Positions 32,533-36,988 of a stretch of DNA of 64,000 nt are shown here, in pieces (position 1 is the stretch's first letter; the number at the start of each line of letters is the position of its first letter). The DNA comes from Gemmatimonadaceae bacterium (GTDB taxonomy: Bacteria; Gemmatimonadota; Gemmatimonadetes; Gemmatimonadales; Gemmatimonadaceae). The stretch spans positions 1 through 64,000 of the forward strand of contig JACCRF010000169.1 in the NCBI GenBank assembly GCA_013813715.1, written 5' to 3'. The position numbers were made by a program, and so were the translations under genes. The notes under the pieces were generated by a model. It was not told where the DNA came from. It saw only the letters and a program-made list of their open reading frames with translations, and made no database searches.

Positions 32533-35448
32533 CTACCGCGCCGGTCCGAGATATTTGTCCAGCCAGCTCAATGACTCCGCGATCAACTGCGTTCTCGGAA
32601 CGAAATGCCCGCCTTCGTAGAGCACATACCGTTTCTCGCCCGCGGGTGTGCCAAGTAGCCGGAAGAATGGCTTCTGTGAGGTTTCCGGCGGAAAGAAGTG
32701 GTCGTATTTCCCGTTCAGCATAATCACGGGAATGCGAATTCGGGGTAGAAAATTGAGGGGATCCACCTCAGGCCGCGACCGCTCCATTTCCAGTCCGGCG
32801 ACGTACAGTATCGCTGCCGTGATTCGCGGCTCGATGGCTGGCATGATGCCGCCCAGGTACCCGCCCCAGCTCACGCCGAAGTATGCCAGTTTCTTCGAGT
32901 CGATGTCGGGGCGTGTCTCGAGGTAATCCACCGAGCGCCGGAGATCCTTCGCCCACATGAGTACGTGGTCGCGATAGAAGATCGTCTGGTCAGCATAATC
33001 ACTCTTGAGACTGTCGCCCCGTTCGTAAGTCCCTTTGTAGATCGGGTAAATGATTGCTCTGCCGCTCTTGAGAAAAAAATCGATCCGATTGATCTCGAGA
33101 TTGTTCTGACTCGACCTCGTGTTGATCGCATTCGAGCCAGGGAAGTACACGACCGTCTGATACGGCGGTTTGCCTCCCTTAGGCAGAAACACGTACGCAG
33201 TTACTCGCTCGTTTCCGTAAGCCGCCGCGAAGCTGACCTTCTCGCGAACCATGGCGGGGTCGCTGATGTCCCGGTCTTCAATCCTCGCCTCGAGCGGGGT
33301 CGGGTCGTAGTCGTACAGCGTTAGAAAAGTCCTGAACTCCGCGTCCGACACCGGCTTCTCTGAAACATAGTCGCGGTAGGCACGCGTGACTGGCTGCATT
33401 GCCACACGCAGGTTGGATTCGTCACTCAGATATTTCGCGAGCCGAATGCCGTTGATTACAGACCGGTCGAAGGGGGGTTGAGTAAATGCGTCATTGAACA
33501 GATATGTCGCATCGCTCCAACCTCCACCAAGGATGAAGCGATTTCGTCCGTCGCTGTTGAAACACCATTCCCGAACGTTTCCCGCCATGTCGAACACTCC
33601 GAATCCGCTCATGCCGCTCGTTGTTCCTCCAGGTGAGGCGCTCTGGCCTCCGAAATTGCTGCCCGGTACGATGTAAGCGCTGATCGGCAAGGTCGCGGCT
33701 CGACTCCAGTGATATATGGAAGGGAGCGACTTGCCCGCGAACTTTGCGTAAGCGGCTGCCTCGTACCAGCTCACGCCGCCCACTGGCAGATCTGCTTGAC
33801 CCGATGGAAAGTCTCCGGCCTCCCATGTGGATGGCCCAGCTCGGCCCGTCCTGTCTATGAACAGCGACACTGCTTCGTCGAAGCCGATTCGCCGAGCATC
33901 CTTCATAAACTCGTGCTCCCAGTAGTCCGGTTTGCTGTATCCGCCTGCATCCACGAACGCCTTGTACTGACGATTCGTCACTTCATGGCGATCCAGCAGA
34001 AAATCAGAAAGCGTTATCGGCTTGAGGGCATCCAGACCAGGCAGTGAGCCGGGAAGATCACCTCCCGCCACGCGCACCATTTCCGGATTGGGTGCCCTTT
34101 CCGCATCGAGGACGATGGGCCGCGTTGGAATGCCGACGATCAAGCGGTTTACCGTCCTGTACCCTGGCATTTCGATTCGCACTCTCGAGACTGACGGATG
34201 CCACGGAAGGCGCACCGAATCCGTGGGAGTGGTTCCCACCAGCTCCCAGTGCGTCGTGTCGTTGAACAACGCCCGGTATACCTTGGCGCCCGCCGGCTCA
34301 GTTTGAAAAACTCCCTTTCGCGAAAACCGAGGCCAGAGAGATTCGAGAACGGAATCTCCGGGAAGCACTTCCGCCGCCTGCATCGCGACCAGGAACGCGC
34401 TGTCGTTCGCGCCTGCGTCGATGTACCGACGGATTGCCGGAATTGCATCGCTCCCCACCCAGCGTTCCCGGCGCCCATTGGAAGTAAGGGCGTAGGTTGC
34501 CCCGGCTACGATGACGATACCGGCGGCGACCATCACGGCGATGCGTTTTCCGCCTGGTGGTCTGCCGGTGCCCGCCATGCCGCCTGCAAGCATGCCGGTG
34601 GGAGTTTCGAGACCCTCGAGCGCGCTGAGCAGATCATCGGCGCTTTGATACCGCGCTTCGCGCTGCTTCTCGAGGCACTTCATCACGATGCCCGCAACCG
34701 CCGGTGGAACTGACGGTTGCACTGCGGACAATGGGCTTGGCGGCGTCACCATGTGTGCCGACATCACTTGCTGCGCATTACCGGTAAACGGTGGCTTTCC
34801 GGCGAGCATTTCGTATGCGACGATACCGGCCGCGTAGATGTCAGCCCGCTGATCGACGTCCGGATCGGCGCTCACTTGCTCCGGCGCCATGTAAGCGGGG
34901 GTGCCCAGCGACATACCGATCGTCGTGAGATTGTGATCTCCCACCGCGTCGCCCATTGCCTTGGCCACGCCAAAGTCGAGCACCAGCGCGTGACGATTGG
35001 AAATCATCACATTGTCGGGCTTGATGTCCCGGTGAACCATGCCGTGCTGATGTGCATGCGCGAGGGCATCCACGATCTCACGGAAGAGCCGGGTGGCCTC
35101 CGATACTGGCAACGCACCATCGCGAGCAAGTCTCGACCTCAGCGATTCTCCATCTACGAACGGCATGACGTAGTGGAGGAATCCGTCCGCCTCGCCCGAG
35201 TCAATCAGCGTCAGAATGTTCGAATGCTGGAGCTGCGCAGCGATCGAGATCTCCCGCAGGAAACGCTCGCTGCCGACCGCGCGGGCGAGCTCGCGGTCAA
35301 GGACCTTGATAGCGACCACCCGCGAGTGACGGAGATCCCGCGCGAGGTACACCGTCGCCATTCCGCCGTGCCCGAGCTCTCGCTCGATCTCATATCGGTC
35401 CGCAAGTGCGGCGCGTAAGCGCGTGACGTCTTCGGCCATCGGCTGCAT
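32533..35448 (-). CDS. Ser/Thr protein kinase - PEGA-like - formylglycine-generating-enzyme (SUMF1-like) - alpha/beta hydrolase fusion
   Basis: Kinase VAIKVL/HRDIKPDNVM/DFGVA; FGE-like VTNRQYKAFVDAGGY...GFGVFDMAGNVREWCFN...LGGGW; hydrolase FGVSWGGYLGG, LNGKYDHFFP, YEGGHFVP. Confidence 0.92.
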   Translation of the reverse strand: MQPMAEDVTRLRAALADRYEIERELGHGGMATVYLARDLRHSRVVAIKVLDRELARAVGSERFLREISIAAQLQHSNILTLIDSGEADGFLHYVMPFVDGESLRSRLARDGALPVSEATRLFREIVDALAHAHQHGMVHRDIKPDNVMISNRHALVLDFGVAKAMGDAVGDHNLTTIGMSLGTPAYMAPEQVSADPDVDQRADIYAAGIVAYEMLAGKPPFTGNAQQVMSAHMVTPPSPLSAVQPSVPPAVAGIVMKCLEKQREARYQSADDLLSALEGLETPTGMLAGGMAGTGRPPGGKRIAVMVAAGIVIVAGATYALTSNGRRERWVGSDAIPAIRRYIDAGANDSAFLVAMQAAEVLPGDSVLESLWPRFSRKGVFQTEPAGAKVYRALFNDTTHWELVGTTPTDSVRLPWHPSVSRVRIEMPGYRTVNRLIVGIPTRPIVLDAERAPNPEMVRVAGGDLPGSLPGLDALKPITLSDFLLDRHEVTNRQYKAFVDAGGYSKPDYWEHEFMKDARRIGFDEAVSLFIDRTGRAGPSTWEAGDFPSGQADLPVGGVSWYEAAAYAKFAGKSLPSIYHWSRAATLPISAYIVPGSNFGGQSASPGGTTSGMSGFGVFDMAGNVREWCFNSDGRNRFILGGGWSDATYLFNDAFTQPPFDRSVINGIRLAKYLSDESNLRVAMQPVTRAYRDYVSEKPVSDAEFRTFLTLYDYDPTPLEARIEDRDISDPAMVREKVSFAAAYGNERVTAYVFLPKGGKPPYQTVVYFPGSNAINTRSSQNNLEINRIDFFLKSGRAIIYPIYKGTYERGDSLKSDYADQTIFYRDHVLMWAKDLRRSVDYLETRPDIDSKKLAYFGVSWGGYLGGIMPAIEPRITAAILYVAGLEMERSRPEVDPLNFLPRIRIPVIMLNGKYDHFFPPETSQKPFFRLLGTPAGEKRYVLYEGGHFVPRTQLIAESLSWLDKYLGPAR

Positions 35449-35604: not shown

Positions 35605-36411
35605 TCAGGCGATACGAGGCACCTCAAACTCGGCGTCAACCATCCAGTCGCCGTCCAGGCGGAGCAATCGCGCGATTGCAATCGCAGAAGATGGAATATC
35701 ACTACTGACCCCAATCACACAGACCTCCTCGACGCACGGAAAACGGGGATCGTCGGTTTCCAATCTGGACAACTCGGGGCATGGATGCTCCCAGAAACGC
35801 AGTGTGACGTACCATTCGTCACCGCCTACCCGAATTACGAACGTCGCGCCATCGGGTAGTGCGATTTCCTCACCACGCGAGTCGATCGCGTAGCCGGGTT
35901 CCACAATGATTCGTAAGCCGCCTTGATCGTCAGCGCGCGATACACTTACGCCGAGTCCGGAGATTATGCCAATGCCATGCAGCCGGCGGTTGTGCCGCCG
36001 CAATTTTTCACGGAAGTAGTTCTGCTCGGCCCGAAGCGTTCCGACGTCCAGCAATTGACCACTGAAGTAGGACGGGCGCTTCAATGCCTCGGTGTCCGTC
36101 GCTGGCGAGCTAGCGAGTTCGAGCAATCGCGCGGCTGCGCGAAGCGCCCAGATACTGCCGCTGTCCGGCATCTTTTCGACGCGGTTTCCAAGTACATCGG
36201 CGAGATGGGCGATGAGCTGCAGCAGCGTCACGCCAGGATCGGAATCGTTGAATGTTGTCCACTTCGGGAAATGGGAGGACACGACGCGCTGCAACTCCGT
36301 AACCAGCGACTGCAGGTGTTCGTTGTCGATCGAGGTAGAAACTGCGGCGACAGGTTCCTCTGCCGCCTCAATCCCTTCCACGTAGACACCTGGGCACAGG
36401 TATTCCGGCAT
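35605..36411 (-). CDS. Mosaic protein with phage-tail/contractile injection system-like segments
   Basis: MPEYLCPGVYVEGIEAAEEPVAAVSTS (sheath-like N-terminus), WTTFNDSDPGVTLLQLIAHLADVLGNRVEKMP (baseplate J-like), YFSGQLLDVGTLRAEQNYFREKLRRHNRRLHGIGIISGLGV (module I associate with CIS loci). Confidence 0.7.
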   Translation of the reverse strand: MPEYLCPGVYVEGIEAAEEPVAAVSTSIDNEHLQSLVTELQRVVSSHFPKWTTFNDSDPGVTLLQLIAHLADVLGNRVEKMPDSGSIWALRAAARLLELASSPATDTEALKRPSYFSGQLLDVGTLRAEQNYFREKLRRHNRRLHGIGIISGLGVSVSRADDQGGLRIIVEPGYAIDSRGEEIALPDGATFVIRVGGDEWYVTLRFWEHPCPELSRLETDDPRFPCVEEVCVIGVSSDIPSSAIAIARLLRLDGDWMVDAEFEVPRIA

Positions 36412-36532
36412 CAATCTCCTCGCGGTGCGCGGTTGTGTGACTCGCTCGGGGAACGTAGCATTTTGACAGGGGAAGTTTTTTGTTTTTCGGCGCTCGAAGA
36501 ATAAGGCGCAAGCAAAAAGGAGGAGGATCGCA

Positions 36533-36988
36533 ATGGCTACTCGGAAACGGAGTGCGAAATCCGCCGCAGGGACGCTCCTGCCCACCAGGCCATCCGCCTG
36601 TATCGGTGGGATGTGTGATCCGCAACGGATTCAGGGACTCAAGGCCCCTGCGCCCAAGGGCACCCATAATCTTATCACTCTCGAAGGACCAGGCCTCTTT
36701 CTCGCCGGCCACGTCTCGAAACAGGGCGGAGCGACCGGCCTTACCTTCGTACAGCTCCGGATAGACGGTCGCAGCGTTGTTGATCTTTCTTTTGTGGCCG
36801 CCCGCAACCTTGGCTTTACGCAACAGAATCCCTACGGCATCGTCGTCCTGGGTAGTCTCGGGCTGCAGAACCTGACGTTCGGCTGGCCTGTCCCGCTAGT
36901 GTTCAAGCGAAGTCTCACTCTTACGGTAGTCGTGAACGAAACCGGGGTCGTGCAGCTGCTGGCGAACGTGATTCGAGGAAGTCTCTAG
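36533..36988 (+). CDS. Hypothetical beta-rich protein, possibly virion/CIS-related
   Basis: 151 aa; strong RBS (aaggaggagg) before ATG; TLEGPGLFLAGHVSKQGGATGLTFVQLRIDGRSVVDLSF. Confidence 0.75.
   Translation: MATRKRSAKSAAGTLLPTRPSACIGGMCDPQRIQGLKAPAPKGTHNLITLEGPGLFLAGHVSKQGGATGLTFVQLRIDGRSVVDLSFVAARNLGFTQQNPYGIVVLGSLGLQNLTFGWPVPLVFKRSLTLTVVVNETGVVQLLANVIRGSL

Follow-up and report, generated by a model that had tools for sequence, protein, structure and literature searches.

The window analysed here is a stretch of 64,000 nucleotides from the genome of a Gemmatimonadaceae bacterium (labelled G000). It lies on a 101-kb contig of a draft assembly of 3.73 Mb in 183 contigs, which is 96.6% complete. 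Between positions 35,605 and 36,988 the window holds two divergent genes, P0001 and P0002, the first of which encodes a mosaic of contractile injection system (CIS) parts. The features of the locus are as follows.

35605..36411, minus strand: P0001, mosaic CIS protein of 268 amino acids; intact open reading frame with a strong Shine-Dalgarno sequence
36328..36411, minus strand: module 1 of P0001, sheath N-terminal arm, residues 1-28, MPEYLCPGVYVEGIEAAEEPVAAVSTSI; placed by an arm HMM and the register of 8bky/9ezm
36097..36327, minus strand: module 2 of P0001, Cis11 N-terminal core-bundle segment, residues about 29-105; placed by TIGR02243 and 9gtp_1K
35608..36096, minus strand: module 3 of P0001, Cis13/Cis19 fibre-base domain, residues about 106-268, up to the stop; placed by NF053767, All3314, Foldseek and an orphan protein of the genome G008
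36412..36532, no strand: divergent intergenic region of 121 bp with two strong ribosome-binding sites
36533..36988, plus strand: P0002, 151-amino-acid ORFan, divergent from P0001

The reading frame of P0001, its length of 268 residues and both of its coordinates were given correctly in the first-pass annotation. Its strong Shine-Dalgarno sequence lies a few bases before the start (GCGAGGAGATTG-ATG). A sigma-70-like promoter was looked for in 36412..36532 and none was found. The composition of P0001 resembles that of neighbouring genes. Its codon use exceeds the composition null (z 2.6) and is weaker than in the majority of its neighbours. In a Pfam scan the flanking genes are metabolic or regulatory, and no defence family was recognised among them. 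At 32533-35448 of the window, on the minus strand, a 971-amino-acid fusion combines a protein kinase, an FGE-sulfatase domain and an alpha/beta hydrolase-like domain.

P0002 also has a strong Shine-Dalgarno sequence (AAGGAGGAGGATCGCA-ATG), as had been noted at first pass, and is probably a real gene because of this ribosome-binding site. It likewise belongs, as annotated, to no recognised family (Pfam, PHROGs, curated HMMs), and its relatives in 399 phylum genomes do not rise above noise (lowest E 0.0015, in an alignment covering part of the protein). The beta-sandwich that had been suggested for it is not confirmed by the structural model, which consists mostly of strands at a pLDDT of 38. 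The proposed pairing of P0001 with P0002 is likewise unsupported. In the other genomes searched neither of the two turned up, so the idea of a conserved pair was dropped; the two are linked by adjacency only, and a CIS connection of P0002 is unsupported.

The first interpretation was right in reading three CIS segments in one protein, and both of its alternatives, a reduced or repurposed element and a decay product, are weighed below. Sequence matches confirm P0001 as a series of three N-terminal modules: a sheath arm, a Cis11 core-bundle segment and a Cis13/Cis19 base domain. For the sheath-like start, an arm HMM was built from ten real sheath N-termini and run on the 5306 open reading frames of all fetched loci. 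It matches sheaths and residues 1-28 of P0001, the latter at E 2.9e-7 (5306 ORFs), and over these 28 residues P0001 is 43-57% identical to four sheaths. In a phmmer search of the PDB, residues 1-28 are aligned with residues 1-28 of the CIS sheaths 8bky and 9ezm, a match that is weak alone (E about 0.5).

The second module, earlier described as a baseplate segment of the Afp11 type, corresponds to the N-terminus of Cis11. TIGR02243 matches residues 29-87 (E 8.7e-11), and the Cis11-type baseplate protein 9gtp_1K matches residues 25-108 (PDB, phmmer; E 3.9e-10, or 8.7e-23 with a profile). The same profile also matches the N-termini of Algo12, Afp12, Pvc12 and pyocin Tri1. We take the module to be a helical segment of the baseplate core bundle.

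The third module had been associated with CIS loci at first pass without its family, that of the Cis13/Cis19 fibre-base (crown) proteins, being recognised. NF053767 (CIS13_fam) matches residues 110-211 at E 1.5e-16, and a profile match links the module to Anabaena Cis19 (All3314, PDB 7b5h; E 2.6e-9). The gene all3314 has been named cis19, and Cis19 forms a crown of six trimers (PMC8894136). Residues 108-259 also match a 172-residue orphan protein of G008 nearly end to end (27%, 3e-16). The structural model of P0001 is weak, with a pLDDT of 55 overall, below 50 in the arm and best in module 3; a Foldseek search with it placed 7b5h Cis19 chains first and TssK lower, at E 0.01-0.5. Each junction is near the point where a natural Cis11 or Cis13-type protein begins, and the reading frame stops near the end of the domain. 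Pfam and PHROGs searched with P0001 gave no match.

As a whole protein, P0001 falls outside the families that its modules come from. It scores 60.7 bits against the NF053767 whole-protein cut-off of >370 (model positions 4-105 of 392), and its E of 1.5e-16 belongs to the N-terminal base domain of that family. For TIGR02243 it scores 41.1 bits against >155.8 (model positions 3-61 of 659). The Cis13/Cis19 tail-fibre or crown proteins (NF053767; All3314, 7b5h; the PKD-domain protein of 9wt0) have module 3 as their N-terminal base domain, whereas P0001 is without all of their downstream parts (All3314 has 1476 amino acids) and lies outside any CIS locus. Cis11 (TIGR02243; 9gtp_1K) and the N-termini of Cis12/Tri1 share with module 2 a helical segment with the SDPG-T-L motif, but P0001 has about 75 of the some 650 residues of Cis11 and the J-like core is absent. 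The CIS tail sheath (PF04984/PF17482; 8bky, 9ezm) has residues 1-28 as its N-terminal arm. In P0001 this arm stands alone: Pfam found no match to the sheath core and C-terminal domain (PF04984), and the core is instead a separate, arm-less gene on another contig. The view of P0001 as an ordinary single-domain family was dropped.

The architecture of P0001 was seen in no other genome searched. Searches with P0001 in 149 genomes of the family, 399 of the phylum and 19 of the genus, sets that overlap, found no protein with two of the modules, and P0001 is absent from 18 congeners. At the same site in G111, which belongs to the same genus, neither P0001 nor P0002 is present; the kinase gene next to the site is 78% identical there, but is followed at about 145 bp by a different gene. 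Given its absence from the congeners and from this site, P0001 may be young. A contig-collection search gave no match with P0001, and with a Cis13-type alignment it gave six relatives of module 3 and no mosaic. Phage records contained no match to P0001 or P0002, and the plasmid matches listed were Cis11-type N-termini of Streptomyces, Deinococcus and others. A match over residues 40-183 in locus L011 was rejected as a two-module relative, because the alignment reads through a stop between two genes.

No sheath or tube lies near P0001, as the first-pass annotation had stated. It had missed the one sheath gene found in G000, which lies elsewhere, on the 9-kb contig C166.

C166 (L064:7757-8875): orphan sheath gene of 372 amino acids without an N-terminal arm (PF04984 + PF17482)

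This gene is divergent from a TPR gene. It starts at a GTG at position 19 of the arm HMM, and in frame upstream of the GTG there is a stop and no arm. Since the sheath begins after the arm and P0001 has the arm, the part missing from the one is, by alignment, the part carried by the other. A tube (PF06841) is absent from G000 at E up to 10, in a search that found it in six relatives. No second Cis11 was found in G000, nor a second Cis13-type domain at E 0.001, and neither spike, ATPase, Cis12 nor tape measure was recognised beside the C166 sheath or beside P0001. The contig ends 88 bp past the sheath, and CIS genes beyond this end may be missing from the assembly. Its composition is borderline: at r 0.876 it falls slightly short of the values for the window contig (0.887-0.956). 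In addition, contig C249 (L100) of G002, a bin of another genus, has a stretch like C166 at 94-97% DNA identity, in which the sheath carries a large internal deletion. In view of the short end, the composition and this near-identical stretch, it is likely but not certain that C166 belongs to G000.

An assembly in 183 contigs, and a sequence found in no second genome, could also point to a chimeric contig built from reads of three CIS genes. This reading is very improbable. It would take two in-frame joins within an 807-bp reading frame that has its own Shine-Dalgarno sequence and the composition of its neighbours, and the joins would be to otherwise absent sequences, because no source gene was found intact elsewhere in G000. 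Another explanation sees in P0001 a decoy or immunity factor whose bundled assembly interfaces would poison the assembly of a CIS or a phage tail. This agrees with the nature of all three modules, which are assembly interfaces, and with a host in which a full CIS was not seen. However, the flanking genes are metabolic or regulatory with no defence family recognised by Pfam, and such a decoy would be narrow since CIS parts vary widely between systems; we regard it as very improbable.

In G022, G003, G031 and G094 a sheath, a tube, Cis11 and Cis13 are present, and the order of the modules in P0001 equals the order of the genes there. This order supports the explanation that P0001 is a scar of decay, in which two in-frame deletions would have collapsed a CIS operon into a fused remnant without function in which no stop has arisen so far. 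No further baseplate or tube genes were found in G000, and sheath remnants occur with stops in G111 and with deletions in G002; the arm-less sheath in these close relatives looks like a decaying gene. The weak codon score, the divergent module 2 and the restriction of P0001 to one genome fit decay as well. Decay is a serious contender, to which we give distinctly less than an even chance. It accounts poorly for 268 codons free of stops behind a strong Shine-Dalgarno sequence, for two in-frame junctions near natural protein starts, for a stop near the domain end and an undecayed module 3, and for a second mosaic whose order is not that of an operon.

This second mosaic is found in G155 and came from a sheath search, not from the searches with P0001.

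L052 and L109:3-1517: G155 mosaic open reading frame, a mini-Cis11 joined to a sheath (Cis11 N-terminus, FGDG segment, arm-less sheath core)

The contigs that carry it, C53 and C34, overlap exactly at their ends by 141 bp and give one open reading frame when read together. The match on C53 was rejected as a stand-alone gene for a Cis11 N-terminus, being the front of the C34 mosaic. The FGDG segment has its best matches in Cis11-type proteins (E 4e-4). Like P0001, the mosaic joins the N-terminal segment of Cis11 in frame to an element of a sheath, and no tube was detected in its genome either. In contrast to P0001, its order is Cis11 followed by the sheath core, and both the arm and the Cis13 module are absent.

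The sheath part of this mosaic and the sheath remnant of G111 both start at arm-HMM position 18. The TPR gene next to the C166 sheath also adjoins the G155 sheath and lies about 6 kb from the G111 remnant. In a tree, the G000 sheath groups with the sheaths of G155, G027, G391 and G139 (98/95), and for the arm-less sheaths as one clade the AU test gives a p of 0.21. In G027 the tube lies directly behind the sheath; around the sheath of G139 and G391 no CIS genes were seen.

Five genomes (G000, G008, G155, G391 and G198) have Cis11 or Cis13 modules outside a CIS locus; in G008, G155 and G391 this is a Cis11 or Cis13 N-terminal module. Four of the five, namely those covered by the tube search (G000, G008, G155 and G391), have a sheath and no PF06841 tube, compared with a sheath match in 15 of the 149 family genomes. 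Solitary sheaths without recognised CIS neighbours were observed in G391 (L065:10912-12603), G139 (L104:17330-18967), G054 (L101:9632-10768) and G008 (L108:5520-7142). These may be tube-less, the tube search having covered G391 and G008. The orphan of G008 (L055:4912-5430) is a stand-alone Cis13/19 base-domain protein of 172 amino acids beside a glutamate-dehydrogenase-like gene. In G391, a lipoprotein-like reading frame of 185 amino acids (L039:1234-1791) contains a Cis11 N-terminal segment (TIGR02243 7e-9). A 313-residue orphan of G198 (L035:1009-1950) has a Cis13-type base domain preceded by an additional N-terminal region, and G403 has an apparently frameshifted copy of it (L040).

The preservation of the modules was scored with HMMs built from relatives, the relatives themselves being scored leave-one-out. 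Module 3 of P0001 reaches 94.8 bits; its relatives, which mostly lie in CIS loci, span 53-106 bits, and the module is therefore not decayed. The arm reaches 37.9 bits, compared with 7-57 for relatives. Module 2, at 67 bits, lies below every CIS-locus Cis11 in the set (90-113) and has drifted, as have the other displaced Cis11 modules (58 bits in G391, 49 bits in G155). From the module scores, the codon use and the positions of the junctions and of the stop, selection on P0001 is slightly favoured.

The explanation that we tentatively prefer, at a little under an even chance, is that P0001 is an exapted adaptor docking on the orphan sheath. It starts from the module identities, the intact reading frame and the gene content (no detectable tube, and an arm-less sheath in the same assembly). 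Random breakpoints in genes of 400-700 codons would rarely give junctions so close to natural N-termini together with a stop near the end of a domain. Also in its favour are the undecayed module 3, the codon z of 2.6, the arm-less sheath of G000, the non-collinear G155 mosaic, the stand-alone base domain of G008 and the sheaths without a tube in genomes with stray modules. Counted against it are the absence of P0001 from congeners, the 67 bits of module 2, the weak codon use, the decaying sheaths of G002 and G111, the doubts about C166 and the poor structural model. The adaptor is thus favoured over the decay scar, and the evidence does not separate the two decisively.

In the proposed mechanism, the CIS operon of the lineage would have collapsed in such a way that the starts of its sheath, cis11 and cis13/19 genes were joined in the order of the operon. 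P0001, whose gene is intact and has a good ribosome-binding site, would then act as a small adaptor. The three pieces kept are contact surfaces of a CIS. The arm is interwoven with adjacent sheath subunits, the Cis11 helices belong to the baseplate core bundle, and the fibre trimers (Cis13/Cis19) are seated on the baseplate by the base domain. The arm is predicted to insert in trans into the arm-less C166 sheath, the helical and base domains to make an oligomer and a docking surface, and the outcome to be a tube-less, non-injecting structure.

An analogy is provided by diffocin. There the sheath initiator links the first ring of the sheath with the baseplate core bundle via a handshake interface, and non-sheath proteins contribute handshake strands, namely the initiator and, at the other end, the collar (PMC10996793). 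Comparable contacts are conceivable for P0001, which has a sheath arm adjacent to a core-bundle segment and a fibre base; its arm would then complete the arm-less sheath. Like an initiator (Cis9/gp25 type), it would be one protein bridging core bundle and sheath handshake. Unlike the initiator, to which no sequence relation was seen, it would use the sheath arm and a core-bundle piece themselves.

A broader and unlikely extension is that CIS parts were domesticated repeatedly in Gemmatimonadota, giving sheath structures without a tube whose baseplate would be replaced by chimeras such as P0001 and the G155 mosaic; in G000 the sheath arm would have been split off, and P0001 would supply it in trans. 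If P0001 is functional, the assembly interfaces of a CIS can be recombined into an adaptor made of one protein, and a contractile sheath can persist without a tube, for a use that is not injection. Should it be a scar, P0001 would be a readable intermediate of injection-system loss.
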